From positions 1-64,000 of the forward strand of contig NZ_JANQBA010000004.1 in the NCBI RefSeq assembly GCF_025490915.1: 64,000 nucleotides of DNA. The letters are read 5' to 3'. Of this stretch, positions 6,848 through 23,196 are shown in pieces. The position numbers and the translations under genes are program-made. Source of the stretch: Lacticaseibacillus parakribbianus (GTDB taxonomy: Bacteria > Bacillota > Bacilli > Lactobacillales > Lactobacillaceae). Below the pieces are notes generated by a model that was not told where the DNA came from, searched no databases, and saw nothing but the letters and a program-made list of their open reading frames with translations. Every line of letters starts with the position of its first letter. The first letter of the stretch is position 1.

Positions 6848-9800
6848 TTCGAATACCTCTTCTCTGGTTCTTGATATCGTCAATCTGCTGCATCTTCACA
6901 CGCAGCGGTGCTGCCATCTCGTCCGTCATCTCGCGCTTGTCGAGGTGGGCGTGCGTGTGGATCTCCAGCACGTCCGGCGTCGCCGCGCGTTGCTGGAGCA
7001 TGGTGGCCACAGCCTGCTCAAGCTGACCGATCGACTTGCTCAGTCCCTTGATGGCGACCGAAGACCCGCTATCCAGCGACATCTGCACCGACGACGTTTC
7101 AGGCGTGAAGCCGGACGCCATTTCCGGCGTGAAGCCGGTCAGGCGGTCGAGCACATCGTTGGTGCCACCACTGGTACCGCCGGCGAAGCGCGGGATCACA
7201 CCCGACTGCATCAGCTGCGCCGTCTTGCGGGCCGGGGTGATCGCGGTGCCGGCGGGAAGGCCAGGGAGAAACACGTTGCGCCCTTTTGCCACAGCCATGG
7301 TGCCGTTTGGTAAGGTCAGCAGCTCCTGGTATACGGGACCGGTTTCGTCGTTGATGATGGCCCCGCCACCATGGAAGTTGGAAGTACCAGTTCGGAATCC
7401 GAGCACCTTTGCGACGCCCTTGCCGAAGTTTGCCACCACACTCAGTGTCTTGGTGAAGGTCGACTTGCCAGATGCAAACTTGGAGACTGCATCCCTTGCT
7501 GTTTTAGCGGGGCCGCTAGCATGATCAAGCGCCTTGGCCGTCTTCGTGCTACCCATGCCTTGGCCTTGCCACGCCTTTGCTGATTTGGTTGCCTGGTCGA
7601 TCGGGCTGCTAGCGGGATTCGAGCCCTTCGCGACCTTTGTCGGGCCCATACCCTGACCAGCCCACTTTTGAGCCGACTTGGTAGCGGCGTCCACTTCCTT
7701 GGAGGCGTCGTTCTTGCCTTTCGCATGCTTAGTAGGGCCCGGGCTAGTGTTTTTGTATTTGTTTACTGCCGCTGTACCCAGCCCGAAGTTATTTTGTACG
7801 CTGTTAGTATCTGCCGTCGCCTTCTTCTTGTTCGGCTTGAGTAGATTGTACTTATCAATAATCACACCTGCATCAATTAGCTTCTGCTGCAGGTCTTCAT
7901 CATTTAGAATCGCCTTTTTGATGGCGTCCGGTAAATCTTTGAACTTGCCATACTTAATCGAGTCGTTTGCTACTGATTCAAGAAAACCTGGGTCCTTCAA
8001 CGCAGCCTTCTTAACTGCGTCTGGCAGTGTGACAAATCCATCGTACTTTTGCGCCAGGGTAGCAAGATCACCTGCCCCTTTTGCGTTGACGATGGCCATC
8101 TTCTCTTTGAACGTCATCTTCTGCCAGTCTCCTGATGCTTCAAGCATGTTGATAAGTGGCAGGGAGGCTTTGTCCTTGACCAGCGCAGTCTTCTCTTTAA
8201 GCGTCAGCTTATCCCAATCGCCGCTCTTGGTGAGCGCGTCAATCAACGGAGCGTAGTCTCCTTTCACGACTGCTTGCTGCTCCTTCGGGTCCAGGGAGTC
8301 CCAGTCGACAAAGTCTTCCATCACGTTGGCAAGTTGCTCGCGGCCTTGCGTACGGATAATGGCAGTCTTCTCCCATGTAGGAAGCTTCTTCCACTGGTCT
8401 GTCGCAGCCATCGCCTCCACGATGGCTTGCTTGGCATTGCTAGTGATGTGGGCATTTTTAAGTTCAAATTCAAGCTGACTCCACCCTTGCTGAGTAGACG
8501 CCGTTTGTTTGAGCACTTCAGGCAGGTTGGTGACAACCTTCCCAGTCTTGGGATCAAGCACCAGCTTATTCCACTCGTTGCCGGCCTTCTTAGTCGCCTC
8601 ACTCATGCCGTCGCCGACAGAGGCCGCAAAGTTCTTAGTCGACTTGGTGCTCTTCGCCATCGAATCGTCGTAACTTTTGAGAGCCTTCTTGACATCAGAA
8701 GCAGACATCTTGAAGGCATACGACATGTTCTTGACGATCTCGTCTTCGGTGTCGCCACGAACCTTCATCGCTTGAATGGTGCCGCGATAAATGCCATTCA
8801 TCTTGGCCTGGTGGTCTTTCTCCAATCCTTCGAGTGCAGCATTTCGTTCAGTTGCGTTGTTCTTGAGTTTGTCTTTAATTTGGTCCTGTGCCTTCTCGTT
8901 AGCCAATACTTCTTTGTGGTAAGAGTTGGTCATGTCCTGCAACTGATTGTCGGCTGCTTGACGAGACATGGTCACCTTTTCACCCAGGATGGCCTTCAGA
9001 ACGTTGTTTTCTTCTTTGCCTGACAATTTGAGAGTCTTTACTGCCGAAGCTGCGCTGTCAGCACGAAGGTTATCAAGCACCTGAATTTGTTCTGCTGTTA
9101 GCGCGACACCAGATTTTTTGGCCGCCGCTGTGATGACGTCAACTTTCTTCTGGTCAGACTGTATCTGCGCAATGCGCTTTGCATTTGCTGCCTTTTCTTT
9201 GGCCGCCGCAGCTTCAAGATTGGATCCGGCTTCACCGCCAAGAGATTTAGCAAGCTTCTTAGCCACCTTGTCAGATTCGTCCGCGGCCGCCTTGGCTGCC
9301 TTCGTCATGTCGTCAAATCCCTTGACGATAGTTGCGGCATTCTCCTTCACCGTATGGTTCGTATCGTCGAAGGCGCCAGCAATCTTGCCGGAAGCTTGTT
9401 GTAACTGCGTAGCTGCCTTGTCAGCGACGGGGCCAATATCCGCGCCCCACCGCTTAGTACGATCAGCGGATTCTGCTGCTTTCTTACCGTACAGCTCCCA
9501 CCAAGCGATACCGCCAGCAACCGCAGCACCGGCCACCAACAGGGCTGGTGCTAACGGCGCAAGGCTGGCGACAAAGCCGGTCGTCCCGACTCCAGCCCCA
9601 GTCATCGCCGCACCAGCGCCTTCAGCTGCTGTAGCTGCCTCCGCGATACCCGCGCCGGCCGCCGGCGCTGCACCAGTCAGCTTGCCGAATAATCCAGCAA
9701 GCAAGCCAGTTTGTTTACCAGTCTTTGCCGCCCCTCCAGTGAAGCGACCAAGGAACTCAATTGCGCCGCCACCCATTCGCGACAGCACGCCAAGCCCGGT

Positions 9801-11648
9801 GCTCAGTTTTCCGACACCAGAGATGACTGGGCCCATTACGGCGGCTGCCGCAATTGACTTCAGAATCATGTCCTGCGTGCCTTCATCTAGCTCGGAGAAC
9901 CAGTTGACCAGGTCAGTTCCTTTCTTCACCAGGTCGGTAATCTGCGGCAGGAGCTTTGCGCCCACCGTGATGGCCAAAGTATTGAGTGATGCCTTGAACT
10001 TATCGACGTTGGCCTGCGAGGTGTTGTTCATCGTCTCGGCCAGCTTCTTGGTGTAGCCGGTAGAGTTTTGAGTATCCTTGGTTAGTTTGCGTAGCGACGC
10101 GCTGCCTTCGTTGATAAGGATATTCATGGCAGACTGGCCATCAATACCGAACGCCTGCTGCAAAACAGCCGCCTTTTGTGCATCCTTCCAGCCCTTAGTC
10201 GTCTCAGCAATTTCGTCGATTACTTCCGGTAACCCAATAGCGCCGCTCTTAAAGGCGGCAACATTGACACCTAACTTTTTCATGGCAGGTCCCGCTTGAC
10301 CGGACTGAACAGTCAGACTCGATAGTACAGACCTGAGGCCGGTGCCTGCTTTCTCGCCTTCAATACCTTCCTGGCTTAAGTTACCAAGAATTGCGGCAGT
10401 CTGCTCAAGGCTCATACCCATCCCGCTTGCGACTGGACCAACATATTGCATTGCCAGTCCCAAGTCTTGAAAGCCGGAAGAGGTTGCATTGGCTACATAG
10501 GTCAGCGAGTCGGTGACCCGCTGCGTGTTTTTGAGCATCTGCGCCGTGTTGTTGGACTTCAAACCAAACTGCTCAAGCGTGGACGTGGCTACGGACATGA
10601 CTTCACCAAAGTCATCACCCGAGGCCCGCGCCGCATCCAGAATCGACGGCATGGCGCCCAGGACTTGGTTGTAGCTGTAGCCCTTCTTGATCAGCTCCGA
10701 CATCCCGTTGTTGATGTTGGAGGTGGACACGCCGTACTGCGTCGACCACTTCTTCGAGGCATTGCCCAGTCCTGTCAGCTCAGCCTTCAGGCCAGCGGCG
10801 GACACCGTACCATCGTCCAGCAGTGAACCCATCGACTGAATTTCACTGTCGAACGTGACGGCTGCTTTGCCGGCGTATGCCAATCCGGCCACGATCGGTG
10901 CCGTGATGCCTATCGTCATCTTCGAGCCGACGGCACTCAGCTTCTCACCCGCCGACGTGAAGCGATCGCCCAGTGCGCGCACTTTGTCCGCGGCGGCGGC
11001 CATCTGTGGGGTGAGCCCGCCGATTTTTGACTCGAGTCGCTGCGTCTCAAGACCCAGCGCGGCTTGCTTGCCGGCCAGTTCGACGTAGGCGTTGCGCGCC
11101 TCGTTAGTCTTGGCCGAGTTCTCACCTTCGGCCACCGACAGCTGCACGAGCTTGTTACGCGCCTCGTTGGTCTCGATGGTCGTCTGTCCCAACTCGGACT
11201 TGAGACCGTTCAGGTGGGACACTGCGGCCGAAGTTTTAAGCCCCGCCTGCTCTTGCGCCTTCGACAGGCTGTCCCAATACTTGCCCTGAGCTTCGAGTGA
11301 GGACGCCATCTGCTTCTGCGCGTCGACGGCCTTCGTGGTCTCATCGCTGTTGCGCTTGGTCTCGTCGGTGTCCTTTTTGGTCGAGTCGGTCTTCTTCTTG
11401 GTCGAGTCGGTGGCCTTGTCTGCGGCGTCACTTTCCTGCTTCTTAGCAGTAGCGTCCGCCTTGGTGGCTTCGGCGGCGCCCTTGGCAGCGTCCTTCGTCT
11501 CATCGAGCGCCGTGGCCAACTTCTTGGCGTTGGTCGCCGCCTCTGGCTTGACGTCGACGTCCTTCAGCGTCGACTTGAGTGCGGTGGCGGCCGCCGTGGC
11601 GGTACTCGTGATCAGTTTGACGTCAATCTTGACCGTTCCATCAGCCAT
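6828..11648 (-). CDS. Tail tape measure protein
   Basis: At 1606 residues this is the largest gene of the phage. Its N-terminal 200 residues are a highly charged Ala/Lys/Asp/Thr coiled coil. A TP901-1-type tape-measure core follows (about residues 250-560; QSMGSLLDDGTVSAAGLK..., SGDDFGEVMSVATSTLEQFGL). Hydrophobic helices lie near 690-720 (LAPALLVAGAAVAGGIAWWELYG). A run of degenerate helical repeats around DWxKLTxKEKxAxVxxK (about 1150-1330) ends in Gly-rich repeats (GQGMGxTKxAKG). Such proteins set tail length and are ejected with DNA. The gene overlaps the upstream gp15-like gene by 8 bp and dit by 20 bp. Confidence 0.95.
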   Translation of the reverse strand: MADGTVKIDVKLITSTATAAATALKSTLKDVDVKPEAATNAKKLATALDETKDAAKGAAEATKADATAKKQESDAADKATDSTKKKTDSTKKDTDETKRNSDETTKAVDAQKQMASSLEAQGKYWDSLSKAQEQAGLKTSAAVSHLNGLKSELGQTTIETNEARNKLVQLSVAEGENSAKTNEARNAYVELAGKQAALGLETQRLESKIGGLTPQMAAAADKVRALGDRFTSAGEKLSAVGSKMTIGITAPIVAGLAYAGKAAVTFDSEIQSMGSLLDDGTVSAAGLKAELTGLGNASKKWSTQYGVSTSNINNGMSELIKKGYSYNQVLGAMPSILDAARASGDDFGEVMSVATSTLEQFGLKSNNTAQMLKNTQRVTDSLTYVANATSSGFQDLGLAMQYVGPVASGMGMSLEQTAAILGNLSQEGIEGEKAGTGLRSVLSSLTVQSGQAGPAMKKLGVNVAAFKSGAIGLPEVIDEIAETTKGWKDAQKAAVLQQAFGIDGQSAMNILINEGSASLRKLTKDTQNSTGYTKKLAETMNNTSQANVDKFKASLNTLAITVGAKLLPQITDLVKKGTDLVNWFSELDEGTQDMILKSIAAAAVMGPVISGVGKLSTGLGVLSRMGGGAIEFLGRFTGGAAKTGKQTGLLAGLFGKLTGAAPAAGAGIAEAATAAEGAGAAMTGAGVGTTGFVASLAPLAPALLVAGAAVAGGIAWWELYGKKAAESADRTKRWGADIGPVADKAATQLQQASGKIAGAFDDTNHTVKENAATIVKGFDDMTKAAKAAADESDKVAKKLAKSLGGEAGSNLEAAAAKEKAANAKRIAQIQSDQKKVDVITAAAKKSGVALTAEQIQVLDNLRADSAASAVKTLKLSGKEENNVLKAILGEKVTMSRQAADNQLQDMTNSYHKEVLANEKAQDQIKDKLKNNATERNAALEGLEKDHQAKMNGIYRGTIQAMKVRGDTEDEIVKNMSYAFKMSASDVKKALKSYDDSMAKSTKSTKNFAASVGDGMSEATKKAGNEWNKLVLDPKTGKVVTNLPEVLKQTASTQQGWSQLEFELKNAHITSNAKQAIVEAMAATDQWKKLPTWEKTAIIRTQGREQLANVMEDFVDWDSLDPKEQQAVVKGDYAPLIDALTKSGDWDKLTLKEKTALVKDKASLPLINMLEASGDWQKMTFKEKMAIVNAKGAGDLATLAQKYDGFVTLPDAVKKAALKDPGFLESVANDSIKYGKFKDLPDAIKKAILNDEDLQQKLIDAGVIIDKYNLLKPNKKKATADTNSVQNNFGLGTAAVNKYKNTSPGPTKHAKGKNDASKEVDAATKSAQKWAGQGMGPTKVAKGSNPASSPIDQATKSAKAWQGQGMGSTKTAKALDHASGPAKTARDAVSKFASGKSTFTKTLSVVANFGKGVAKVLGFRTGTSNFHGGGAIINDETGPVYQELLTLPNGTMAVAKGRNVFLPGLPAGTAITPARKTAQLMQSGVIPRFAGGTSGGTNDVLDRLTGFTPEMASGFTPETSSVQMSLDSGSSVAIKGLSKSIGQLEQAVATMLQQRAATPDVLEIHTHAHLDKREMTDEMAAPLRVKMQQIDDIKNQRRGIRNDRLSN

Positions 11649-12279
11649 TCATGTCACCTTCTTTCTTCATGCGTGCGAGCAGCTTGATCCGCTGCAGGCG
11701 ATCAAGCCCGATCATCTGCGCCTCGATAGAGCCAGGCTTAGCGGTGGACGTCTTGAGGCTGTACAGCTTCTTCATCTTGAGGATGTGGTCGCGCTGCTCG
11801 TCGGTTGCGTCCTTCGGGATCTCCATCATTCGGTAGGCCGTCGCTTGCCGGAACGGCGTGTCCGGGCCCAATCCGTCCAGGAGTGCATTAAAAAACGCCC
11901 AGGAGAGCTTGGCGCGTTCCCGAGCGTTAGTCAGGTCGATGTGATACTGCTGCATAAAGCTAGCGGCGATCCGGCTAGCGTCGGCGTCGAAATCGAATGC
12001 CTTACCTTTCGCTTTGAAGATGGAGGCCGCCAACCGGTTCTCTGCTAGGTCAATTTTCTCATCCATGATGGCCTGCAGGAGGCCGTCACGAGCCGCAGGA
12101 GCGACGCTAGCACTGCCGCGTACAAGTAGCCGCGTGACCAGCTCCACGTGCTCCTGCGCTGACAGGCCGTCGTCAGCGAGGATTCGGAAGACTTCGAGCA
12201 CGACCGCGTAGCCGAGGTTCAGCTGATACGTGACCCCGTCCACCGTGATCTGGTTCTCATTTTTCCCCGTTAAGTCCAT
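11641..12279 (-). CDS. Gp15-family phage protein (tail assembly chaperone partner)
   Basis: ATG 12279 is chosen because AAGGTGA precedes it by 6 bases; the frame is open further upstream but inside the previous gene. The 212-residue product resembles the bacteriophage Gp15 family: GKNENQITVDGVTYQLNLGYAVVLEVFRIL at the start, then helical repeats. Its place between the assembly chaperone and the tape measure corresponds to the T part of the lambda G/GT pair. It overlaps the chaperone ORF by 23 bp. The overlap includes a G4A5 run next to the chaperone stop (see findings). Confidence 0.75.
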   Translation of the reverse strand: MDLTGKNENQITVDGVTYQLNLGYAVVLEVFRILADDGLSAQEHVELVTRLLVRGSASVAPAARDGLLQAIMDEKIDLAENRLAASIFKAKGKAFDFDADASRIAASFMQQYHIDLTNARERAKLSWAFFNALLDGLGPDTPFRQATAYRMMEIPKDATDEQRDHILKMKKLYSLKTSTAKPGSIEAQMIGLDRLQRIKLLARMKKEGDMNG

Positions 12280-12796
12280 GCACGTCACCTTCAGCTTCCT
12301 GCTTGAGCGCGTCGACTTCCTTCGCATACTTTTGCATGTAGTCCTCGACGTCGTTGGCTGCGTTCATCTTGGCCATAACGATGCCGATGACCTTGCTGAC
12401 GGCCACCGTGTTGCGGCCGCACGTCTCGTAGATCTCCGCACCAGAGCCGGCGCCGAACAGCGTATCGAGGAAGGCCGGGTAGGCTTGCTGGCCGTATGTC
12501 TCCGCCTGATCGGCCGCGAAGTTGAACTTGCGGGTGAAGTCCGCCTGCAGGGCCTCCTCACGCTGCTTGGCCTGCTGATCGGTCAGGTCACGCTTGACGT
12601 GCGACAGTTTGTACTGCAGCTCACCTTGCAGGTCTTCGATGTGCTTGTTCGCCGCGATCTCGTGGGTCTCGATGGCCCGATACTCCTCGGTGATCTTGGC
12701 GCGGCTCTTGTCGGCCAGTGACAGCGTGTAGACCTTGCCGCCGATGTCAAAGTTGATTGCGGTCTCGGGTACGGTGATCTTGATAGTTTCGGTCAT
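12257..12796 (-). CDS. Tail assembly chaperone
   Basis: A 179-residue, largely helical acidic protein with an N-terminal beta segment (IKITVPETAINFDIGGKVYTLSLADKSR). It lies between the major tail protein and the gp15/tape-measure genes, the usual place of the chaperone that coats the tape measure during tail assembly. The site AGGAGAGAACATC precedes the ATG at 12796. The sequence itself is poorly diagnostic, so the call rests on position, size and helicity. Confidence 0.65.
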   Translation of the reverse strand: MTETIKITVPETAINFDIGGKVYTLSLADKSRAKITEEYRAIETHEIAANKHIEDLQGELQYKLSHVKRDLTDQQAKQREEALQADFTRKFNFAADQAETYGQQAYPAFLDTLFGAGSGAEIYETCGRNTVAVSKVIGIVMAKMNAANDVEDYMQKYAKEVDALKQEAEGDVHGLNGEK

Positions 12797-12869
12797 GATG
12801 TTCTCTCCTCTTTTTTGAGTGATAAGGATCGCCGGCAGTTTGATCCGACCGACGACCGTGTGGAACTGG

Positions 12870-12945
12870 TTAGCCTACAGTTACTTTCGCGCCGTCCCCA
12901 GTAGGCTCAGCTTTCAGGCTGGCCGGCGCTGTCATTACCCCGCTG
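12870..12945 (-). promoter_or_regulatory. Putative -1 frameshift element of the major tail gene
   Basis: The zero frame ends GCG GGG TAA. A G4 run permits the P-site tRNA to move from GGG to GGG in the -1 frame while the stop is in the A site; this is not a canonical X-XXY-YYZ heptamer. Eight bases later an outer stem GCGCCG/CGGCGC encloses an inner stem CAGC/GCTG. The layout matches the element after the major capsid gene, with compensatory base changes in both stems. A weaker alternative is reinitiation at the ATG overlapping the stop (TAATG). Confidence 0.65.
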
Positions 12946-13549
12946 GTGCCGGGGCTGCTCCCTTGACCACGGCAGTCTCGCCGAGGATCTCCGCGTTGAT
13001 GGACGGGGTCTCCGTGAGGACAGACGTCATCTTATCCGCATCGGTGGCCGCATCAAGTACGGTTGGCTTGGCGGCGTAGGTCAGCGTGGCCTTGAATGCG
13101 CCAGGGTCGGTCGCGTTACCGCCCTTGTCCGTGATGTCGCTGACGGTCGCGATCCCAGTGCGGACCTTGGTCAGCTCCAGCGACTTACCGTCGTCGGATT
13201 GGACGTAGTCGAGCTCACGCAGCCATACGTTGCGCGCAGCCCCGGTCTGGTCGGCCAGCGCCGCAAGCAAGTCCTGCGCCGGATCACCAGTGGAACGGTC
13301 CCCACTGAGCGCCAGAGAGCGCGTGGAGCCGGTGACGGTGGTCGTCTCCTGCCCGCCACCGTTGTAGTAGGACTTGGAGTTCTTCTTGTCCTCCTGAGTG
13401 ACGTCGATGGTCTCGATGCCGTCGCCAATGTAGGCGACGTCTTCCGGCACCGCGTCAGCACTCGTTGCCTTGCCCACGAAATATTCAGACAGGAAGTTCT
13501 CTTCGATGCTCCCGTGCGTGAGCAGGTCTTTTGCAGTCTTTGCAGTCAT
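12870..13549 (-). CDS. Major tail protein, with putative -1 frameshift extension
   Basis: The unshifted product is 204 residues (13549 to stop at 12935-12937), the usual size for a major tail tube protein, starting MTAKTAKDLLTHGSIEENFL. It is followed by the assembly chaperone and preceded by a tail terminator-like gene. The last sense codons are GCG GGG before TAA. Slipping back one base on the GGGG run (12938-12941) reads a further 22 codons to a stop at 12870. The added tail (V)MTAPASLKAEPTGDGAKVT ending VG is closely related to the one after the major capsid gene. A stem-loop begins 8 bases after the slip site. L. casei phage A2 is an established case of -1 frameshifting in both genes. 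Confidence 0.85.
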
Positions 13550-13561
13550 ATAACTGCCTCC

Positions 13562-13978
13562 TTAGTTGTTTAGAATGATTGTCGTTTTGAAACTAGCGCC
13601 GTAGACGGAGTAGGTCTCCCCGCTATCCTCCACGGCGCTGCGATACGCTGGGCTGTCAGTCATCTCGGCCTTGACGAATTGGAAGCTACCGTTGGCGGAC
13701 TTGATGTCGCCGCTGCGCGCATGCTCCACCGCGTCCACAATCTGGCTCAGCAGACCGATCGCGTCGATCGGCCGCGCCAGCTTCGTCATGATGGTAAAGG
13801 CGTACGCGCGGCGCACACGACCGCCGTAGTAGCGCTTGACCTCGTTGGTCGGCTTGATGACGTACACAACGCCTGGCCCGCTTGAGTCCTGGCGCCCAAA
13901 GTCGATACCAGTCGGCAGCGACACGGTCGCCTTGATGAAGCTGATCACCTGGCTGTCCAGGTCTAGGGTCTTGGTCAT
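13562..13978 (-). CDS. Phage minor capsid / tail terminator-type protein
   Basis: A 138-residue protein encoded directly upstream of the major tail gene. Start and length fit the tail terminator (minor capsid 3-type) slot of Gram-positive siphophages. Recognisable features are LDLDSQVISFIKATVSLPTGIDFGRQ, a predicted beta core with VRRAYAFTIMTKLARP, and a C-terminal strand (VYGASFKTTIIL). It overlaps the preceding gene's end by 4 bp. Tail terminators cap the tube and join it to the head; that role is inferred from gene order. Confidence 0.65.
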   Translation of the reverse strand: MTKTLDLDSQVISFIKATVSLPTGIDFGRQDSSGPGVVYVIKPTNEVKRYYGGRVRRAYAFTIMTKLARPIDAIGLLSQIVDAVEHARSGDIKSANGSFQFVKAEMTDSPAYRSAVEDSGETYSVYGASFKTTIILNN

Positions 13979-14346
13979 GATTGCGTCATCCTCTCTCCTA
14001 CGAATCGCTCCCAGCCGGCCATGTTGACATCAGCGGCACGCTCGACCCAGTCGGCACCGGCTTGCTTGTGTTTGCCCGTGTAGTAGTTCAGCGCGAGTCC
14101 ACCGGTGACGTACTGCTTCGGCTTGGGCCCGACCATCACCTGGCCGAACCAGACATAGTGCGCATAGGGCGCGCCGTAGATGATCGAGCTGTCGATGATG
14201 TCTGCACTATCCCCGGACAGATTGCCGTCTTGGCGTGGCACGAACGGGTCCGCGTCTTCACGCACCTTGCTCGCCAACTCGCGCTCCACGTCGGCCGGGT
14301 TGGCCAGCTCATCGGCCCAGCGGCCAAACTCCACGGTGGTGGTCAT
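13975..14346 (-). CDS. Minor capsid protein (head-tail joining, type 2)
   Basis: The ATG at 14346 overlaps the TGA of the previous gene by 4 bp and is preferred over an upstream in-frame GTG-type start. The 123-residue product begins MTTTVEFGRWADELANPAD and contains IIYGAPYAHYVWFGQVMVGPKP, a motif of the HK97 gp10 / minor capsid 2 class that forms part of the neck. Gene order (connector, this pair, terminator, tube) supports the role. Confidence 0.7.
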   Translation of the reverse strand: MTTTVEFGRWADELANPADVERELASKVREDADPFVPRQDGNLSGDSADIIDSSIIYGAPYAHYVWFGQVMVGPKPKQYVTGGLALNYYTGKHKQAGADWVERAADVNMAGWERFVGERMTQS

Positions 14347-14708
14347 TGCAACCACACTTCCCAGTGATGCGGCGTCGGTAGCCATGCCTTGAGCGCGTCG
14401 ATTTGGATCACCTGCCGCGTCACGCCGCCGTACTCGACCTTGTCGCCGAGCTTGACGGAGTAGCCGTCTACATTGACCGAGTTGATCGCGTCGATGAAGA
14501 CCAGCGTGTTGCCGATGTGCTGTAGCTGGGCGCTGTCACCGGCACCGCCGGTCACTTGCCGCTTGTCGACGGGCTGCACGAGCACGCGCTCGAATCGGTG
14601 CCGCACCGGCTCGCCGAGGTTGTCGGTCGAAGTGGCGGACTGGTGCTCGATGACCTCGATACTGTCCACCAGCGCACGCATTGGGATCGGTCGCACGTCC
14701 TTAGCCAT
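14343..14708 (-). CDS. Minor capsid protein (head-tail joining, type 1)
   Basis: The start is placed at ATG 14708 (MAKDVRPIPMRALVDSIEVIEH), which overlaps the stop of the connector gene by 8 bp; the frame upstream of it reads a shadow of that gene. The 121-residue product is mostly beta, with the pattern GYSVKLGDKVEYGGVTRQV typical of small head-closure (stopper) proteins. It is coupled on both sides to other neck genes. Confidence 0.7.
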   Translation of the reverse strand: MAKDVRPIPMRALVDSIEVIEHQSATSTDNLGEPVRHRFERVLVQPVDKRQVTGGAGDSAQLQHIGNTLVFIDAINSVNVDGYSVKLGDKVEYGGVTRQVIQIDALKAWLPTPHHWEVWLQ

Positions 14709-15108
14709 ATTGATGCACCCCACCGTATAGCAGGCCCGTCGGCTGCAGGTAGCGCACCACCCGATCGTCAACGGCACCAGTCCATTCGACGCTTGCCGCT
14801 GCGCCGGTCGGGGCTGTCATGGAGAATGAGCCGAGCGTGAAGGACTTAGCGCCCTCCTGCGCTGCGGCGCGCTCGTTGGTAGTGACACCGCCCTGGTCTT
14901 GGTAGAACTCGATCTGGGCACAGATGGCGTTCTTGACGCGCGTCTGGTCCGTCACGAGCTGCAGGTCGGCCAGTCCATGAGCATCAAAAAAGCCGTGACA
15001 CAGGGAGTTCACAGCCTCTTCGGCGGCACGCTCATACCTCGGCCAGACGGCTTCGGGCACAGGCTGGCCCATGAACGTCTGGGCATAATACTCCTGATCG
15101 ACTAGCAT
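14701..15108 (-). CDS. Head-tail connector (adaptor) protein
   Basis: ATG 15108 (MLVDQEYYAQTFMG) has AGGAGG 9-10 bases upstream; an in-frame GTG at 15117 sits inside that site and is unlikely. The 135-residue product is a mainly helical protein with conserved spacing of aromatic residues (YYAQTFMGQPVPEAVWPRYERAAEEAVNSLC), as in gp6/gp15-type adaptors that dock on the portal. It opens the four-gene neck block after the capsid genes. Confidence 0.7.
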   Translation of the reverse strand: MLVDQEYYAQTFMGQPVPEAVWPRYERAAEEAVNSLCHGFFDAHGLADLQLVTDQTRVKNAICAQIEFYQDQGGVTTNERAAAQEGAKSFTLGSFSMTAPTGAAASVEWTGAVDDRVVRYLQPTGLLYGGVHQYG

Positions 15109-15124
15109 GGCTGCCACCTCCTAG

Positions 15125-15613
15125 CTAGCCTTCGGCCGCAGCCACCGGCGTGGCCTTGACGATGGCGGACGCCGGGCTATCACCAGCGGCGTTGGTGGCC
15201 ACGACCTTGACCTGATACTCGGTGTCGTTGGTCAGACCGTCCACGGTCCCGGTCAGCTTAGCCGGGTCGGCGATCGCCACGTCGGTCCACTTGCTACCGT
15301 CGGTCGAGTAGCTCAGCTTGAGTGCGGTGGCAGCGGAGCCGCCGTTTGCGGCGCCCAGCTTGATTGTGTAGTCGAGCTTGGCATCGCCGACAGTCAGCGT
15401 CACGGTCGGCGCCTTGAGCGCGGCGTCCTTGACCATGAAGGCTGGCACGTCGACCTTGTCGGACGTCTTGGTGCCGTCAGAAAAGGCGCCCTGGTAGTCG
15501 CCAGCAGCGACCGCCGTGTTGGGCGCCAGCCCGGTGATCGCAGCGCTAGTCGCATCACCGGTGAAGGAAGGAGTGTCCTCCCCCTTCTTGTAGATCACAA
15601 GCTTCTCAGCCAT
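15125..15613 (-). CDS. Capsid decoration-like protein with Fn3 domain
   Basis: A 162-residue protein immediately after the major capsid gene, with AAAGGAGG before the ATG. Residues 1 to about 60 form a small beta module (MAEKLVIYKKGEDTPSFTGD...). Residues about 70-155 are a fibronectin type III/Ig-like domain (ALKLSYSTDGSKWTDVA, TVDGLTNDTEYQVKVVATNAAGDSP). Ig-like and Fn3 domains are often displayed on capsid surfaces of tailed phages and may bind host glycans weakly. Its binding site partly overlaps the end of the frameshifted capsid extension. Confidence 0.75.
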   Translation of the reverse strand: MAEKLVIYKKGEDTPSFTGDATSAAITGLAPNTAVAAGDYQGAFSDGTKTSDKVDVPAFMVKDAALKAPTVTLTVGDAKLDYTIKLGAANGGSAATALKLSYSTDGSKWTDVAIADPAKLTGTVDGLTNDTEYQVKVVATNAAGDSPASAIVKATPVAAAEG

Positions 15614-15626
15614 GATTGGCCTCCTT

Positions 15627-15698
15627 TCAGCCTACAGTCACATCTGCACCGTCTGCAGTAGGCTCGGCGTTAAGCGCCGACGGTGCGGTTATTTTCCC
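15627..15698 (-). promoter_or_regulatory. Putative -1 frameshift element of the major capsid gene
   Basis: Slippery heptamer GGGAAAA (15692-15698) in the correct frame is followed by a 5-base spacer. A stem-loop follows with outer stem GCACCGTC/GACGGTGC (8 bp) and inner stem TCGGCG/CGCCGA (6 bp, loop CTTAA). All three classical requirements for -1 programmed frameshifting are visible: heptamer, spacer and stimulatory structure. Confidence 0.82.
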
Positions 15699-16696
15699 GC
15701 GTCGGGATTCTCGACCGGAGCGGTATCAGCAGCTACCTTGGTGGACAGGTTCGTGGTGTCCTTGGTAGACTTCACGCGCTTGGAGCCACGAGGGGAGGTC
15801 GGCTTTACAGCCGGGTCCTGGGCGCCGTCACCAGCGACCTCGGAGTTGGCCCCGATGACCAGAATCTTGGTGTCGTCGTAAATCGCAACACCGTAGATTG
15901 CGTCGGCGTTGAACAGGGTGGTCTTGTGCGTGATGTCGCGAGCGGACTCGGCGTTGACGCCGCGCTTCATGTACGTGCGGAGCGCGCCCGGCTTGATGGC
16001 CAGCTGAGTGCCAACCGGAATCTTCTTACTGGTCTGGATTTCCCATCCGAGTACACGGCCGATGGAGCCGCTGACCAGCACGCTGTCGCCGAGATCGGTC
16101 TGCCGGGTCCAGTCGCCGGACTCGGTCTTCATAATCGCCGCACGCAGCGTCCGCATGTCCTTCGGGTTCATAAAGATGACGCCGGTAGACGAAGCCGCCT
16201 GGTCTTCTGCCTTGTATGGGCTGTTGTCGTCGTCGAAGGCGTTCTCGACGGCGTCGATCAGGGACACGTCCAGGGTAGCCGGCTCAGCGATCGTCAAGCG
16301 TGCATCAAGCGCCGCATTGAGCACATCGTAGTCCATCTTAGCGGCCATGCCATTGGTGATCTGCTTGCGGCCTTCGCCGACGGGATCGCCGTAGCCGATC
16401 AGCGTGGACTCATCGGTGAAGGACAGCCCCTTGGCTACCTTCTTGATGGTGAGCGAGGTCGTGCCGGTCGTCAGCTGATCGTACTGGATCGCTTCGCCTT
16501 CAGCGACGTCCTTGGCGTCCCCGGTGTAGTTGAAGCGTGGCACGGTGATAGTGTCGCCAGGGCGGCCCTCCAACGTGTCGTCCACCGGAGCTAGCTGGCG
16601 AAAGGCCAGGCGCTTCGGCAATTCAGCGGAGATGATGTTGCCCATAACTTCCGGGTCGACCATCTGAGATGCAGTAGTTGGCGTGATTTCTGCCAT
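15627..16696 (-). CDS. Major capsid protein, with putative -1 frameshift extension
   Basis: The unshifted product is 335 residues (16696 to a stop at 15689-15691). It is a HK97-fold capsid protein by length and context, with LAFRQLAPVDDTLEGRPGDTI near the start and a C-terminal IYGVAIYDDTKILVIGANSE, preceded by a scaffold gene. The last codons read GGA AAA TAA within the canonical slippery heptamer G-GGA-AAA (15692-15698). A -1 slip adds 21 residues beginning ITAPSALNAEPTADGADVT and ending VG (stop at 15627). A stem-loop with an 8-bp outer stem starts 5 bases after the heptamer. The longer form would be a minor capsid component, as shown for L. casei phage A2. Confidence 0.9.
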
Positions 16697-16711
16697 GGTT
16701 AATTCCTCCCT

Positions 16712-17365
16712 TTACTTAAAAAGCCCAGCGTATTCGGCTGGGTGAGTGCGTTTGAATTCGAGCTGCTCTGCCGTCTTCATCTTGACGAAGTCGGAGAGCG
16801 TGGTGCCGGTGGCGTTACCTGTCGGCTCGTTGCCGACGATCGCGCTGCCGTCTGGGTTGGCTGCCGGCGCCGCCTCGCTCTTGAACGCCGGGTTACGGTC
16901 GAGCACGCCCTTGAGCGCATCATCGATTGTCTTAGCCCCGCCGACCTTGTTGGCCAAATCGGCGTGAGCCAGTGCCAGAGCGTCGTCGATGTGATCAGCA
17001 CTGACGCCCTGGGTCACAGCCGCAAGCTTGGCCTCTGCCGCGTCGGCGCGGGCGGTAGCTGCCGCCGTGGCCTTCTCCGACTTGGTGAGGTTAGCTTGGG
17101 CGTTCTCCAGGTCGCTGCGGCTAGCAGCATCGGCTTGGTTCTTGGCCTCGATGATTGCCTTCAGGTCGTCAAGGCTGCCGACGCCTAGGTCCTTCAGCAG
17201 TCCCGCCTGTACTTCGTCCGCAGACGGGCCCGTAGGCGTCGCCGGTTCGGCTGGAGTGGCTGGAGCTGCGTTCGCGGCTGGATCGGCACCGGCAGCGGCA
17301 CCAGCAGGGGTGCCGCCTTCACCAGCGCCCGCGTCAGGCGCGAACATAATCAGATGATTTAACAT
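16712..17365 (-). CDS. Capsid scaffolding protein
   Basis: A 217-residue Ala/Pro-rich then coiled-coil protein. Residues 10-50 are low-complexity (GAGEGGTPAGAAAGADPAANAAP). Residues about 60-130 are strongly helical and charged, and the C-terminus carries LSDFVKMKTAEQLEFKRTHPAEYAGLFK. Size, composition and position before the major capsid gene are those of a scaffold. ATG 17365 is preceded by GGGGGAG 5 bases away. Confidence 0.8.
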   Translation of the reverse strand: MLNHLIMFAPDAGAGEGGTPAGAAAGADPAANAAPATPAEPATPTGPSADEVQAGLLKDLGVGSLDDLKAIIEAKNQADAASRSDLENAQANLTKSEKATAAATARADAAEAKLAAVTQGVSADHIDDALALAHADLANKVGGAKTIDDALKGVLDRNPAFKSEAAPAANPDGSAIVGNEPTGNATGTTLSDFVKMKTAEQLEFKRTHPAEYAGLFK

Positions 17366-17429
17366 TGTTTCTCCCCCTTTTTGGGTATAAAAATGGAGCA
17401 GTTTATCGACTTACTCAGGTCGTGGTACT

Positions 17430-17455
17430 AAAAAAGCACCCACAATGTGGATGCT
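17430..17455 (-). terminator. Intrinsic terminator inside the head gene operon
   Basis: On the - strand the stem AGCATCCAC/GTGGGTGCT (9 bp, one G-U, loop ATT) is followed directly by six T. It overlaps the stop of the 35-residue ORF and lies 65 bp before the scaffold gene, so it should partially separate packaging/portal transcripts from capsid transcripts. Confidence 0.75.
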
Positions 17456-17561
17456 ACTTTTGTTCGTCCTTCTCGACGTTTTCTGGATTCCAGCTGTTCC
17501 ACCACTCCACAAAGGAGCGGTCATCTTCAATCACATCAAACTTTTCGGACTTTGAATCCAT
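17454..17561 (-). CDS. Small acidic phage protein (35 residues)
   Basis: Its ATG at 17561 is preceded by GTGAGGAG and lies within the last codons of the minor capsid gene in another frame. The product MDSKSEKFDVIEDDRSFVEW continues to a Lys C-terminus at residue 35 and is rich in Asp/Glu and Trp (EWWNSWNPEN). It is too short for family assignment. Position between minor capsid and scaffold genes and a good binding site support translation. Function unknown. Confidence 0.55.
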   Translation of the reverse strand: MDSKSEKFDVIEDDRSFVEWWNSWNPENVEKDEQK

Positions 17562-19248
17562 ACTCCTCACCTACCTTGTTGAGTGCTCTCAGCCACCTTG
17601 TGTCCTTGGATCCGGTTAGTTCCTTTTTTGCAGCTGCCGTAATCATCATGTTTAGATCCGCTGAATCTGGCAAGGGCTTAGTCGCCCTTGTGTACACGTA
17701 CATTGTACCATCATGACCAGCAACAATTCCATAAGCTGTTTTGCCTTTGTAATTTGACTGCAGGGCGCGCAGATCGTTAGGCGACGGCGGAACGCTCATC
17801 GGGTGATTATGAACCACAACCATTGAATTTCGCTCGGCGTTCCTGATAGTTTCCAGCATAGAATGCGGATACTTATCAATCGAGTGTTCAGTAACCGATC
17901 CGTCATATAGGCTCAGCACTGCTCCAGTATCCCTATCCAATAGCGCAATGTCTTCGTAAGGTGTCCCGTTTCGATGACGCAGCATCTGTGTCGTCACGGA
18001 TTGAACCTGCTTAGCGATCCCACCCATCTCTCTGTCAGAAAGCAATCGGCCCTGAAATGCTTTGCTCCTAAGATATCGCAAATCTGCAACGTATTGAGAG
18101 CTGGCAGCAGCCTTCTCTGCTTCCCTGCCCGTCGCCGCAAGAATCTTCTCGCGCGAGTAGTCCCGCCGCAGAGCGTTCGGGTGGCTGTCAACAAACGTCT
18201 TGAGCTGGTGCTGACGGCTACGCACCAGCCTATTGGCTTTGGCGATACGTGCGTCACTGCCGAACTCTTTAGCCGCCACCTGCTCCCGCTTGGCCGCCCG
18301 GACCTCGCGCTCAAGGCGCCGCTGCTTTTGGGTCAGCGCGTACGCGGCGTTATTGCTGTCGGGGTCTAGTGTGTCCATGTCCGGCGTATCGTAGCCAGGC
18401 ACGTAGGTCATGACGTAGTGGTGGCAGTTGATGCCGCCGAGCCCCCCTGCGCTGCCAAAGTTTGTAGCCTGGTACAGGTCGGGGTATTCCGCTGTGTCAC
18501 CTGTGACCGAGTACACGCGGCCTTGGTAGTCCAGGTGTGTCGGGCGGCATGCCAGATGGCTGCTGACCTTGACTAGGCCGCTGGTCTCCTTGGTGCGAGC
18601 GATCATGACGTCGTTGGTGGTCTGCTTGACTTGCGTCTGCACGACCAGCCGCAGGTAGGTGTCGGGCTGCCAGTGTCGGCCGGCCTTGTCGACCAGGGTT
18701 GGTACACCCTGCTCCGCCCACTGTTCGGCCGCCTGCGCCATGCCTTCGCGCGGCGCCTTGCCGTTCTTGATGGCCAGCGCGGCGTCGGACACGATGCCCT
18801 TGAAGACACGGGTTGCTTCCTTGCTCATCCCCCGCTCGGCCATGGCGACGTAGTTACGTGACTGGGCGCGGGCAGCTTCGACGATCCCCGTCACGGCCTT
18901 GGACTCCTGCAGCGACTTGGGTGGCGTGAATACGTGTTGCTCGGCGAGCGACGCCAACCACGGCTCCATCTTCTGCTGTTGAGCGATCGGCACTGTGGCG
19001 ACGTACTCGTCGAGCTGGCGGGCGACAGACTGGAACGGTTGCCGACCGGCTGCACGTACTGCCGTGGCAACCTCGCCGGCGTGATTGATGATCTGCTGGC
19101 GCCACTCGTCTGGCTTCAGGTCGTCCTTGCCGTCGATGTGCTTTGCGAGCGTCTGGACGATGTAGCCCCACGCCAGATCGCCCAGGGTGGCTGCCAGCTT
19201 CTCAGCGCCGGTGGACAGCGCGTCCAGGTCTTTGGGATTAAGCGCCAT
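17536..19248 (-). CDS. Minor capsid protein with C-terminal JAB-like domain
   Basis: The start is placed at ATG 19248 (AGGTGA 7 bases upstream), giving 570 residues; residue numbers below count from a GTG three codons earlier. Residues 1 to about 310 match the phage minor capsid 2 (MuF-like) class, with the conserved INCHHYVMTYVPGYD near 276-290. A basic coiled linker (310-400) leads to a C-terminal domain with VVVHNHPMSVPPSPNDL. The HxHP (483-486) and S..D (492-495) spacing resembles JAMM/JAB isopeptidases and the Tox-JAB domains of polymorphic toxins. The domain may mature the capsid or be an injected effector; neither is shown here. Confidence 0.85.
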   Translation of the reverse strand: MALNPKDLDALSTGAEKLAATLGDLAWGYIVQTLAKHIDGKDDLKPDEWRQQIINHAGEVATAVRAAGRQPFQSVARQLDEYVATVPIAQQQKMEPWLASLAEQHVFTPPKSLQESKAVTGIVEAARAQSRNYVAMAERGMSKEATRVFKGIVSDAALAIKNGKAPREGMAQAAEQWAEQGVPTLVDKAGRHWQPDTYLRLVVQTQVKQTTNDVMIARTKETSGLVKVSSHLACRPTHLDYQGRVYSVTGDTAEYPDLYQATNFGSAGGLGGINCHHYVMTYVPGYDTPDMDTLDPDSNNAAYALTQKQRRLEREVRAAKREQVAAKEFGSDARIAKANRLVRSRQHQLKTFVDSHPNALRRDYSREKILAATGREAEKAAASSQYVADLRYLRSKAFQGRLLSDREMGGIAKQVQSVTTQMLRHRNGTPYEDIALLDRDTGAVLSLYDGSVTEHSIDKYPHSMLETIRNAERNSMVVVHNHPMSVPPSPNDLRALQSNYKGKTAYGIVAGHDGTMYVYTRATKPLPDSADLNMMITAAAKKELTGSKDTRWLRALNKVGEEYGFKVRKV

Positions 19249-20806
19249 TGTCCTCACCTGCCGTCTGCGTCAAGATGTCGTCCACGTCGTCAGGCCCTGC
19301 GTCCTCCTGCTTGATCTCCGCCAGCCACTGATCAGCCGTCTGGTCGTCGAGCCCGTTGGCACGCTTGATCGCCTCACGCTGAGGCATCAGCGGCTTGTTG
19401 CCGGTCACGGTCTGGTAGTACTTGGCGTTCTCGTCGCGGTCCTTGGCGATGCTGTCGTCGAAGTTGACCATCACCGTAACGTCCGCTGAGGCGCTATATT
19501 TGACCGCTGTGGCGTTTTTGGCGAGCTCCAGACATGATGTTGCGATGTCCTGGATAAACCGCTCCACGAGCGTCTCGTGGCTATTCTTGGTCTGGTAGGT
19601 CTCGGAGTTCTGGCTGACCACCTCAGTCGCCGTCTGCAGGCCAGTCGCGCCGTCGAAGCTAAACGTCGAGGCGCTGAACCCGATCTGCGTGGCATACACC
19701 TTCAGCAGGTCCTTGATCGTCGCGATGAACTGGTCGTTGCGCAGTGGCAGCGTGATGTCGCGCACCTCGTCCTTGTTGGCACCCGTGCGGTCCATCTTGA
19801 GCGGCTGGTACACGCGCTCGCGCCAGTCAACGTACCAGGACTCTTTACCCGTCCTGACATCAGGCGCGCGCTTGAGCATATAGTCAGGCGCGACGATCCG
19901 ACGCCGGCCCATCTGCATCTCCTGCATCAGGCCGTTGTACGCCTCGTCGAGCATCCGCAGCGTGTCCATCGCGTTGGCGTAGATTGGCACACCCAGCGGG
20001 CTGTCCAGGTTGAAGTTGTTGGCGATGTTCGGCTTGAGATACTGGAAGGTCGGCCGGGTGTAGGTCGCCTTGTCGTACAGCGACTTCTCCTTGAGCTGCG
20101 GGTAGACCTCCGCCAGTGGGCAACGTGTGCCCAGGTCGCTGCCGTCGGTCGAGGTCGAGCGGTACAGCTGGTTCTCGACGATGTAGTAGCGCTCGTCCTC
20201 ACGGTGCCACTCCAGCAGCGTGTAGTGCTTGCCGTCGACCACCTTCGAGCTGGCGATCACGCACTCGGTGATGCCGTTGGCGTCCTGGCTGATTGGAATG
20301 ATGGAGTCGGCGGCGGCGAAGCGAATCTTCACCTCGCCATCGTTGACGTACTCCCGCGCCATGATGCCGCCGGTGGCGTAGCAATACTCCAGCCAGCGCT
20401 CCAGATTGACCTTGAAGTGGTTGCGGCGCAGGATCTCCTGCAGCATCAGGTTCTGGTCGTTGTTATCGTCGTCCGGCGTCGTCTTACCCGCCTTCGGATC
20501 CTTGCCGGCCTCGTAGGCCGTGATGGTCGCCGCTTGGTTGAATACCAGGCTAGCCATCTTCTTGGCGCTGACCTTAGGCATGTGCAGCGACAGCAGCGCG
20601 TCGCGGTGCGGATCGCCCTTGACGTCCTGCCAGTTGTACACCGACCACTCTGGATGGCCCTGATACGTCGACATCCAAGCAGTCACGCGCTGCAGGTCAG
20701 CGTCGTCCACCGTCAGGTTAGGCACGTCGGCCAGCGTCTTGATTGAGCTGATAAGTCCCATGCGAGCAAACACCCCCTTCAATTTGAGCCACAGATCATG
20801 CAGCAT
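19238..20806 (-). CDS. Portal protein
   Basis: A 522-residue SPP1 gp6/A118-type portal protein. It forms the dodecameric ring at the capsid vertex and is the terminase docking site. Features include the N-terminal helix block, conserved MASLVFNQAATITAYEAG, and a long helical stem region around IKDLLKVYATQIGFSASTFSFDG (about 400-425). The acidic C-terminus is typical. It follows terL by 11 bp and overlaps the minor capsid gene by 11 bp. Confidence 0.93.
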   Translation of the reverse strand: MLHDLWLKLKGVFARMGLISSIKTLADVPNLTVDDADLQRVTAWMSTYQGHPEWSVYNWQDVKGDPHRDALLSLHMPKVSAKKMASLVFNQAATITAYEAGKDPKAGKTTPDDDNNDQNLMLQEILRRNHFKVNLERWLEYCYATGGIMAREYVNDGEVKIRFAAADSIIPISQDANGITECVIASSKVVDGKHYTLLEWHREDERYYIVENQLYRSTSTDGSDLGTRCPLAEVYPQLKEKSLYDKATYTRPTFQYLKPNIANNFNLDSPLGVPIYANAMDTLRMLDEAYNGLMQEMQMGRRRIVAPDYMLKRAPDVRTGKESWYVDWRERVYQPLKMDRTGANKDEVRDITLPLRNDQFIATIKDLLKVYATQIGFSASTFSFDGATGLQTATEVVSQNSETYQTKNSHETLVERFIQDIATSCLELAKNATAVKYSASADVTVMVNFDDSIAKDRDENAKYYQTVTGNKPLMPQREAIKRANGLDDQTADQWLAEIKQEDAGPDDVDDILTQTAGEDNGA

Positions 20807-20817
20807 CGTCTATCACC

Positions 20818-22119: not shown

Positions 22120-22633
22120 TCTTGTCATCTCCCTTCGCTAACAGTGCCGCCGCGCCCTTAGCCAGTGCTTCAATCAACGGATTCTTGTACCCGATGCCCT
22201 TAAGCTCGTCGCGCTGCATTTCAGCTATGTCAGCAGCGGCCTCGGTCTGTCGCGTCCGCGCATCGAGCAACTTGTCCGTCCCCGGGTATCGCTTGAGTAG
22301 TTCGCGGCCAGCAGCCATGCGGTCCTTGATGCTGGGAGAATTGTCAACCGCTTCTGCACCGTCTCCAGTACCCACCACAATGGTCTCGCTTGCTTCGCCT
22401 CGAAGCACCGTCGTAAGATACTGCAGTACCTCATCGGCATTCGCAATCTTCTCGGATTCAAGCTCAGCCATTCGTTTTTCGATGGCTGATTTTATTCCGA
22501 CATTTTCCAACATTTTTGATGACTGAGCCTTGGCGTATGCCTTGGAATAGCCAGCGGAAACCGCGGCCTGATAGGCATTACCCGACTGTACATAATTGTC
22601 AACAAATCGTTGTTGTTTTGGCTTTAGCGTCAT
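22094..22633 (-). CDS. terS: Terminase small subunit
   Basis: A 179-residue DNA-recognition subunit of the terminase. The N-terminus carries the typical LKPKQQRFVDNYVQSGNAYQAAVSAGYS helix-turn-helix (residues 3-35), and the C-terminal half is helical and charged for oligomerisation. ATG 22633 is used; a GTG one codon earlier is possible. It is encoded first in the packaging block and overlaps terL. Confidence 0.9.
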   Translation of the reverse strand: MTLKPKQQRFVDNYVQSGNAYQAAVSAGYSKAYAKAQSSKMLENVGIKSAIEKRMAELESEKIANADEVLQYLTTVLRGEASETIVVGTGDGAEAVDNSPSIKDRMAAGRELLKRYPGTDKLLDARTRQTEAAADIAEMQRDELKGIGYKNPLIEALAKGAAALLAKGDDKSEDKRQGS

Positions 22634-22817
22634 CACATATCACCACACCTCCGTGTTCTTTTTCGCACGAACGCGGCTTGCTTGGGCGGCCTTCAGCAGG
22701 CTTAGCTCGCTTGTCGTGCTTCTTGCTTTTCTTTTCTTCGGCGTAGATCCTGCCGAGTATGTCGGCCTCATTCTTGCAGACGTAGCCGAACTTGGTCCAT
22801 CGCATTTGGCTCATCAC
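22599..22817 (-). CDS. Small basic protein before terS
   Basis: A 72-residue ORF (or 71 from the second Met) starting MSQMRWTKFGYVCKNEADIL, Lys-rich in the middle (EEKKSKKHDKRAKP) and overlapping terS by 35 bp. A weak site (GTGAGGTC) precedes it. It is the first ORF after a strong intrinsic terminator. No family is recognised, and it could be a non-coding leader of the late transcript. Confidence 0.4.
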   Translation of the reverse strand: MMSQMRWTKFGYVCKNEADILGRIYAEEKKSKKHDKRAKPAEGRPSKPRSCEKEHGGVVICDDAKAKTTTIC

Positions 22818-22828
22818 ATGACCTCACG

Positions 22829-22851
22829 AAAAAACCGCCTCAAGGGCGGCT
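22829..22851 (-). terminator. Intrinsic terminator upstream of the packaging genes
   Basis: On the - strand GCCGCC..GGCGG followed by six T. It would stop transcripts coming from the early genes and arpU just before the packaging genes, so late transcription must either pass it or start close by. Confidence 0.75.
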
Positions 22852-22990
22852 TCTGTGTGCTGTGGCTTTTAGGACAGAGGATGTCACTTCCTCTTCTTTT
22901 TTGTGGCGTCGCACACTCGCGCTATGACCACCAGCCGTCTGACCGACTGGCAGCCCGCTGGCGGGTACCAGCTAAAGGAGAAAATTTTGG

Positions 22991-23143: not shown

Positions 23144-23196
23144 TTCCGATGTTTATGCGGTACAAAATGTTGGGATTCCGTTGAAATTCCGAAGAT

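Follow-up and report, generated by a model that had tools for sequence, protein, structure and literature searches.

A putative -1 frameshift cassette that may add the same short peptide tag to the major capsid and major tail proteins of Lactobacillaceae phages

Garcia 2004 and Rodriguez 2005 are said to have described -1 frameshifts in the major head and major tail proteins of Lactobacillus phage A2, and immunoglobulin (Ig)-like domains on phage virions are reportedly the subject of Fraser 2006. A review lists A2, PSA, A118 and A500 as phages with frameshift products of both capsid and tail genes, calls the extensions of A2 Ig-like and places a pseudoknot at cps of PSA (PMC5009743). Another article treats weak binding to surface carbohydrates as a proposed role of Ig-like decorations, mentions the FN3 domain of SPP1 gp17.1 and states that SPP1 is viable without FN3 and that lambda without its Ig domain shows an activity loss of about 100-fold (PMC8718954). 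The locus described here belongs to a prophage on a stretch of 64,000 nucleotides (nt) from Lacticaseibacillus parakribbianus (contig NZ_JANQBA010000004.1, positions 1 to 64,000), called the window in the following. Within it, the genes of a major capsid protein (MCP) and a major tail protein (MTP) are each followed by a -1 reading frame for a peptide of 21 residues, and the two peptides, called tags, resemble each other. Both sites probably represent a -1 frameshift-tag cassette of approx. 75 nt by which a β-hairpin would be displayed on the particle surface. The -1 coding, the selection on RNA and the tag family with its carriers rest on sequence comparison, and from these we infer the occurrence and rate of the frameshift as well as the display and function of the tag.

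All features of the window given here are on the minus strand (-). The MCP gene (15689..16696; Pfam Phage_capsid_4, E 7e-11; phrog_544, major head protein, E 2.5e-79) ends in the 0 frame with GCG GGA AAA TAA, and a slippery heptamer G_GGA_AAA (15692..15698) directly abuts the stop (15691-15689). The MCP tag ITAPSALNAEPTADGADVTVG follows in the -1 frame (15627..15692), with its residues at 15692-15630 and its stop at 15629-15627. The MTP gene (12935..13549; phrog_820, major tail protein, E 1.9e-29) ends with GCG GGG TAA; its putative shift site GGGG (12938..12941) abuts the stop (12937-12935), and the equivalent site at three other loci (L066, L067, L068; L numbers denote loci) reads GGGGGAA-stop. 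The MTP tag (V)MTAPASLKAEPTGDGAKVTVG occupies 12870..12935 in the -1 frame, with residues at 12935-12873 and the stop at 12872-12870. An earlier note on this DNA had taken the two tags to be related, and this was borne out: over codons 2-21, 43 of 60 nt are identical, 12 of the 17 differences fall in third codon positions, and a search of the whole 2.82 Mb genome with the MTP tag (E ≤ 10) returned only the tag itself (5e-8) and the MCP tag (2.5e-4).

A six-frame search of 54 loci (score ≥ 12) gave 70 tag matches, namely 27 of frameshift type, 30 in frame at a C-terminus and 13 in frame within a protein. One C-terminal match is an antisense chance match (L078), and one internal match lies in a repressor (L073). 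As the antisense match scores 13.6, members with scores of 12-14, such as the sheath tags of L117 and L125, are uncertain. These two matches and L133 were excluded from the similarity, final wobble and region counts; the two matches remain in the in-frame groups of 25 and 13 tags used for the folding z, and L073 also in the unclustered wobble count. The L135 copies of the L080 tags were left out of the similarity, region, codon-position and start-codon counts. Relative to the preceding gene, 26 of the 27 frameshift-type matches are in the -1 frame, one of them being a repeat fetch of the same site (L080/L135), and the exception, L086, is in the +1 frame. All 23 adjacent frameshift sites have a run of A, G or C in the 10 bases before the stop; this set is without L083, L119 and L086, where the tag lies 19-41 nt past the 0-frame stop. 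The arrangement expected of a programmed -1 frameshift site, in which the 0 frame closes with a slippery run and is overlapped by a -1 frame, is present. Thirteen close pairs among 22 distinct frameshift tags (L083, L119, L086 and L134 excluded) differ at 24, 14 and 69 sites in codon positions 1, 2 and 3, respectively; the pairs have members in common and are not independent. This third-position excess, which extends to the MCP tag of the window, argues that the -1 frame is translated, and the comparison indicates that it is under protein-coding selection.

In the proposed mechanism, most ribosomes would terminate MCP or MTP synthesis at the normal stop, while some would slip back one nucleotide on the A/G run directly before it. 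The slip would be helped by RNA directly downstream, an outer stem (S1) around a small hairpin, which a second helix (S2, GCCTAC with GTAGGC) would turn into a pseudoknot in the phage group of the window. Slipped ribosomes would append about 21 residues, so that a minority of the capsid and tail-tube subunits in a virion would end in the same β-hairpin. The tag would be exchangeable: MCP and MTP would receive it by frameshift, and other outer proteins have it fused in frame.

The stems that the earlier note had described are present, with GCACCG/CGGTGC and GCGCCG/CGGCGC as outer and GGCG/CGCC and CAGC/GCTG as inner stems. In the MCP element, S1 is formed by the arms GCACCGTC (15679..15686) and GACGGTGC (15646..15653) around an inner hairpin TCGGCG-CTTAA-CGCCGA (15664..15680; from the sequence and the minimum free energy fold), which has one base in common with S2 and competes for bases with the final two S1 pairs. 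In the MTP element, GCGCCG (12924..12929) faces CGGCGC (12889..12894), and the inner hairpin is CAGC-CTGAAA-GCTG (12908..12921). Four of the six outer-stem pairs are dictated by the peptide, namely by the codons of Ala-Pro and Asp-Gly-Ala, and therefore only the two pairs between wobble positions are informative on selection at the RNA level.

Among the adjacent frameshift tags, these two pairs are Watson-Crick in 15/18 and 13/18 cases compared to 5.8 and 7.4 expected (reached in 0 and 31 of 10000 shuffles). No excess was observed for in-frame tags, neither C-terminal ones (9/24 and 12/24; 7.7 and 10.3 expected) nor internal ones (2/11 and 3/11; 2.7 and 3.2 expected). Both pairs are formed together in 11 of 18 frameshift tags but in only 3 of 35 in-frame tags (Fisher p 9e-5). 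For these final counts and for the folding z, near-identical tags were clustered at 85%, the clusters not being fully independent by descent, and the MCP tags of L076 and L077, whose stem register as read from the sequence is moved by one codon, were entered as unpaired. Without clustering, when only identical tags were merged and the L078 MCP tag, L133 (no anchor) and the antisense L078 match were excluded, the pairs were formed in 15/22 and 16/22 frameshift tags (6.7 and 8.35 expected), 10/27 and 15/27 C-terminal tags (8.7 and 12.8 expected) and 2/11 and 2/11 internal tags. Folding energies were in line with this. Against synonymous shuffles, adjacent frameshift tags had a mean z of -1.82 (n 18) compared to -0.22 for in-frame tags (n 36; p 3e-5). 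All frameshift clusters reached -1.51 (n 21; 9 at p < 0.05), C-terminal in-frame tags -0.16 (n 25; 1 at p < 0.05) and internal ones -0.27 (n 13; 0), a difference between frameshift and in-frame groups with p 3e-4. The more distant tags of L083, L119 and L086 gave -1.46, +0.64 and +1.85. The relatives taken together hence carry a downstream structure with covariation, as expected of a frameshift stimulator, and the RNA appears to be selected where a frameshift is needed and only there. The earlier note had read selection on RNA as well as on protein from the two tags of the window; wobble pairs, folding z and codon positions support this among the relatives, but the two RNA elements of the window are not significant by themselves.

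S2 pairs the S1 loop with sequence further downstream and thereby gives the predicted fold the form of an H-type pseudoknot. Its arms AGCCTAC and GTAGGCT are located at 15658..15664 and 15629..15635 in the MCP element and at 12901..12907 and 12872..12878 in the MTP element; both 3' arms include the first base of the tag stop. GCCTAC in the loop and GTAGGC downstream are found in 13 of 27 frameshift tags, and a helix of any kind with at least 6 base pairs in 1/29 and 2/13 of the two in-frame groups. Compared to shuffled downstream sequence, the S2 duplex energy is modest, with a mean z of -0.95 for frameshift tags and of -0.23 and -0.30 for in-frame tags. For the 13 pseudoknot-type tags, the covariation of the structure was 0.189 compared to 0.084 after shuffling (0/500). 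In them, 94% of cells are paired, two-sided changes occur in 12 cells (3.7 expected), and pairing falls to 25-45% when the partners are slid by 1-3 columns. The number of pairs with a two-sided change, 3 with 2.2 expected, is not exceptional; within S2 one pair is changed on both sides and five of six are invariant. This count is favourable to the structure because the structure was drawn from the same 13 sequences.

A stronger argument for S2 than these covariation counts is the presence of its 3' arm in all three frames of the tag. A DNA pattern of both S2 arms and GAYGGNGC had 88 matches, 75 of which follow a host open reading frame (ORF) in the right frame. GTAGGC is in phase 2 in 67 of these 75, where it contains the TAG stop of the tag, in phase 0 in seven (Val-Gly) and in phase 1 in one. 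The single phase-1 case is the 3' end of the L205 MCP gene, where both pseudoknot arms are retained behind a diverged tag, IDASFTLASEPTADGAKVRRQNKQ. Since the pattern demands both arms, the phase counts reveal the position of the arm and not its rate of retention, and since the 88 matches amount to 35 distinct sequences, many from near-identical prophages, they represent few independent events. Of the 13 matches without host ORF, ten are chance or unrelated, and the other three (L208, L216 and L230) are true tags close to where the fetched stretch ends. Named records with the pattern are from Lacticaseibacillus absianus, hulanensis, porcinae and sharpeae.

By all indications from these comparisons, the tag is a peptide family of Lactobacillaceae phages found on several virion proteins. 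At E ≤ 0.01, a three-row profile of the tag had matches, not all of them true tags, in 23 of 397 genomes from the Lactobacillaceae, and at E ≤ 0.003 a 23-row profile had matches in 33 of 396 genomes from a second, overlapping draw. In each draw, 11 of 40 genera had matches, some by chance. With the 23-row profile, an order-wide draw gave matches at E ≤ 0.001 in 8 of 395 genomes, all of them from the Lactobacillaceae, the share of genomes from outside this family in the draw not being stated. In the phages collection, a short-peptide tblastn search with the MCP tag found no match, and a prophage of the same type on a viral contig had no near match. Outside the window, 21 MCP relatives were found in 301 genomes, and the MCP is tagged in one of them (L018). 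Others have -1 extensions of different kinds, two Ig-like and two HeH/LEM-like (both kinds by eye) and one of 69 residues, or +1 frames, two of 14 residues and one of 35. In L008 and L010, the MCP stop is followed by a short +1 frame, KITTTPTTATIEVE.

The carriers, assigned by profile unless noted otherwise, are MCPs of the Phage_capsid_4 type (window) and of the Phage_cap_E type (L085), the MTP (window), a phrog_341 protein whose counterpart adjoins the MCP in the window (L072, L126, L079 and L086) and a tail sheath of phrog_205 (L079 and L085; Pfam DUF3383 matches below cut-off). A Phage_sheath_1 sheath has a weak tag match with a score of 13.6 (L117), and a 159-residue protein without family match adjoins a phrog_341-like gene (L120, L121, L126 and L132). 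Two or three tagged proteins were found in 23 of 36 prophage regions, or 21 of 36 at a score ≥ 15; these are lower bounds because the regions were fetched at about 10 kb. Two frameshift sites of this kind are present in L066, L067, L068, L071, L076, L077 and L078, where the second gene is MTP by length and place only, and viral contigs contain further prophages with tags on MCP, small protein and MTP. The repressor match mentioned above is a tag-like PVPQNVRAHPTSDGASITAN in the linker of a helix-turn-helix/S24-peptidase repressor (L073:366-1073) and may be chance or a recruited segment.

The tagged 91-residue protein of L072 was predicted with a mean pLDDT (predicted local distance difference test) of 92, and its tag forms a β-hairpin with strands at 78-82 and 85-89. 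A hairpin is also drawn in the tail-sheath model, which is poor (pLDDT 50) and only a hint. In the window, the small protein adjoining the MCP (15125..15613; Pfam fn3, E 8.9e-7; phrog_341, a family with the annotation major tail protein) ends in an FN3 domain where its homologues, by alignment, carry the tag in frame. A Foldseek search with this protein gave no significant match (best E 0.15), the weak ones being FN3-like folds and the tripod of a phage baseplate. The sheath of the isolated phage 3-SAC12, 45-50% identical to the tagged sheaths, has no tag stretch, and its loop at this place is shorter. Ends of MCP or MTP carry shifted-frame extensions that are Ig-like in A2 (per review), P7.1, L006 and L020 (by eye) and HeH/LEM-like in A500, L012 and L017 (by eye). 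As the tag sits where other phages have Ig-like or FN3 decorations, it is read as doing their job, and by this analogy its most likely role would be the same weak cell-surface adhesion as that of Big_2 and FN3 decorations. More tentatively, a single exchangeable surface peptide of Lactobacillaceae phages, in frame or via a portable frameshift cassette, might be placed on all outer components of the particle, from the capsid lattice and the small head protein to the tail tube, the sheath and perhaps the fibre region, as a common label for one partner, e.g. a host wall polymer or a modifying enzyme made by the phage.

The tag could also be the decaying remnant of a frameshifted Ig-like domain without a function of its own, which we consider unlikely. 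The shifted-frame Ig-like extensions at the same places in A2, P7.1, L006 and L020 would fit this, as would the appearance of the tag, which by eye looks like the first hairpin of an FN3 fold. Against it, length and motif are similar across the profile matches from the 11 genera of each draw, some of which are chance, the third-position excess speaks for selection, and the tag is found in sheath loops as well as alongside FN3 in L079, where one protein combines an FN3 match just below the Pfam cut-off with a weak tag match (13.9). A decayed FN3 domain was rejected as origin after profile comparison, in which hhalign gave a probability of 0.2% with the FN3 protein of the window. Of 23 tags, a single one had a Pfam match, which was to an unrelated model (E 0.077), and no recognisable Ig or FN3 domain was found.

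Several results weigh against the frameshift-tag cassette with an Ig-like role. The shift site of the window MTP (GGGG-stop) is not a classic heptamer, and 12 of the 21 MCP relatives are without a clear shifted extension. The pseudoknot is confined to one phage group, the remaining frameshift tags being without a clear S2, and S1 is in partial competition with the inner hairpin. In folding energy, the window elements do not stand out from dinucleotide shuffles (z -0.39 and +0.23), and tags of the window type reach no significance when compared to synonymous shuffles (-0.27 for the window MTP tag and -0.46 for the L067 MCP tag, which is near-identical to the window MCP tag and represented it in its cluster). 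For S2, the duplex energies of the window tags are unremarkable compared to shuffled downstream sequence (z -0.71 and -1.17). Profile comparison gives no support to an FN3 origin of the tag, and Pfam and PDB searches of the tag yielded only unrelated weak matches and no credible relative.

Less probable still than a remnant is an RNA element that acts as regulator, by translation coupling or on mRNA stability, with the peptide being incidental. The position of the MCP copy would fit, as it is flanked by the MCP stop and by an AAAGGAGG that immediately precedes the next gene, and L205 keeps its pseudoknot arms though the C-terminus of its tag is altered. The third-position excess speaks for selection on the peptide, however, in-frame copies retain the peptide without wobble pairing, and the element is located behind two different genes. 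We give even less credit to a restart of translation at an overlapping stop and start, which would yield a free 21-residue peptide and no fusion. The MTP tag of the window does start with TAATG, and ATG is also found in both tags of L067 and the MCP tag of L071. ATG, GTG or TTG within tag codons 0-3 is, however, present in only 5 of the 23 adjacent tags and absent from the window MCP tag, whereas the run before the stop is found at every one of these sites and the same peptide is fused in frame elsewhere. That the RNA imposes the similarity of the peptides, with Ala-Pro and Asp-Gly-Ala as a translated G+C-rich stem, is the least credible alternative and largely refuted, because Pro, Gly-Ala and the greater part of the motif are conserved in in-frame tags that show no excess of wobble pairing, even if the four outer-stem pairs that follow from these codons do link peptide and stem.

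The head and tail genes carry the same group, as the earlier note had proposed, and the pairing recurs: among 57 locus/strand entries from the pattern scans, 18 have two copies on the same fetched stretch at a distance of 2525-2769 nt, many of them from near-identical prophages. Its derivation of the pair from a single duplication within one operon was not established, as there are other carriers and similarity tracks the host genus. Tag similarity is 49.6 within a phage (n 35), 50.2 between phages of the same genus (n 225) and 42.4 between genera (n 1820). Concerted evolution within a phage was rejected since the within-phage value equals that between phages of one genus. For different carriers, the within-phage value of 49.6 is a little above the 46.3 of the same genus (n 135), from which no homogenisation is claimed, and 46.3 exceeds the 42.1 of different genera (0/300 permutations). 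The effect of the carrier (difference 1.5, permutation p 0.01) is weaker than that of the host genus. With other virion carriers known and similarity following genus over carrier, recruitment from a shared pool is as likely as duplication, and tag duplication within the operon is a plausible origin on the sequences compared.

A covariance-model search (R1) as suggested by the earlier note gave no new frameshift member: 24 matches were found in 19 of 397 genomes, of which 11 strong ones are rows of the model itself. The 13 weak matches comprise two known frameshift tags (G316 and G186), six known in-frame tags, a new in-frame tag (G279) and four that look like chance (G215, G314, G053 and G088:C45). 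Rfam at gathering scores had 0 matches within 5000-24000 of the window. The earlier note did not include the pseudoknot helix, the carriers with in-frame tags or the exchange between tag and FN3 domain. One peptide family with and without frameshift is a natural control that separates selection on RNA from selection on protein. As a candidate peptide label recurring on different virion proteins of one host family, it would also allow the role of Ig-like and similar phage decorations to be examined on 21 residues in place of a domain. In annotation, the ends of the MCP and MTP products would be lost from records in which the -1 frame is disregarded.

Other features of the tail region were observed in the window. 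An overlapping gene pair at 11641-12796 precedes the tape measure gene (12257-12796 and 11641-12327, the latter Phage_Gp15). This pair resembles a tail-assembly chaperone pair and may have its own frameshift. The protein at 2793-5348 has calcineurin-like phosphoesterase-type motifs (DTH, GNHD and GHFH), and those at 148-1116 and 2206-2781 have short collagen-like Gly-x-y stretches, all by eye.

The closest described system is Lactobacillus phage A2, which likewise has a -1 shift at the last codons of the head and tail genes; an A2-like -1 extension is present on both MCP and MTP of the window. In the A2 record, CCCAAAAGCG-stop is seen at the head gene as well as the tail gene, and the CCCAAAA site recurs in L118. 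Unlike in the window, where the same tag of about 21 residues occurs twice, the A2 extensions run for 86 and 81 residues to the next stop, and no tag score above 5 was obtained in the fetched A2 stretch. The Listeria phages PSA, A118 and A500 are similar in that second products of capsid and tail genes (Cps and Tsh) arise by frameshift according to the review (PMC5009743). The tsh extension of PSA is also short with 24 residues; still, the PSA shift is +1, its two genes have different extensions, and no tag was found above threshold in the fetched PSA stretch. The A500 capsid extension resembles, by eye, the HeH/LEM-type extensions of its relatives. Latilactobacillus phage TMW 1.2272 P1 (L033), an induced phage, has near-identical 19-residue peptides behind MCP and MTP, KPQTATVETTDTTAVFTIA and KPQTATVETTDTTAKFTIS, which differ from the window tags in their +1 frame and in sequence. 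L033 has no match to the tag profile above threshold, and its pair, which could be a distant cousin or an independent solution, is apparently a parallel one. Ig-like virion domains are comparable as exchangeable decorations of capsid, tail tube and sheath that are attached in frame or by frameshift, whereas the tag is a hairpin of about 20 residues and no domain, without FN3 or Big_2 match. No publication on this short tag was found in a literature search that did not cover the original A2 papers, and its novelty is provisional. Frameshifting at head and tail genes as such is known from A2 and PSA, and what the window provisionally adds to it is this tag family.

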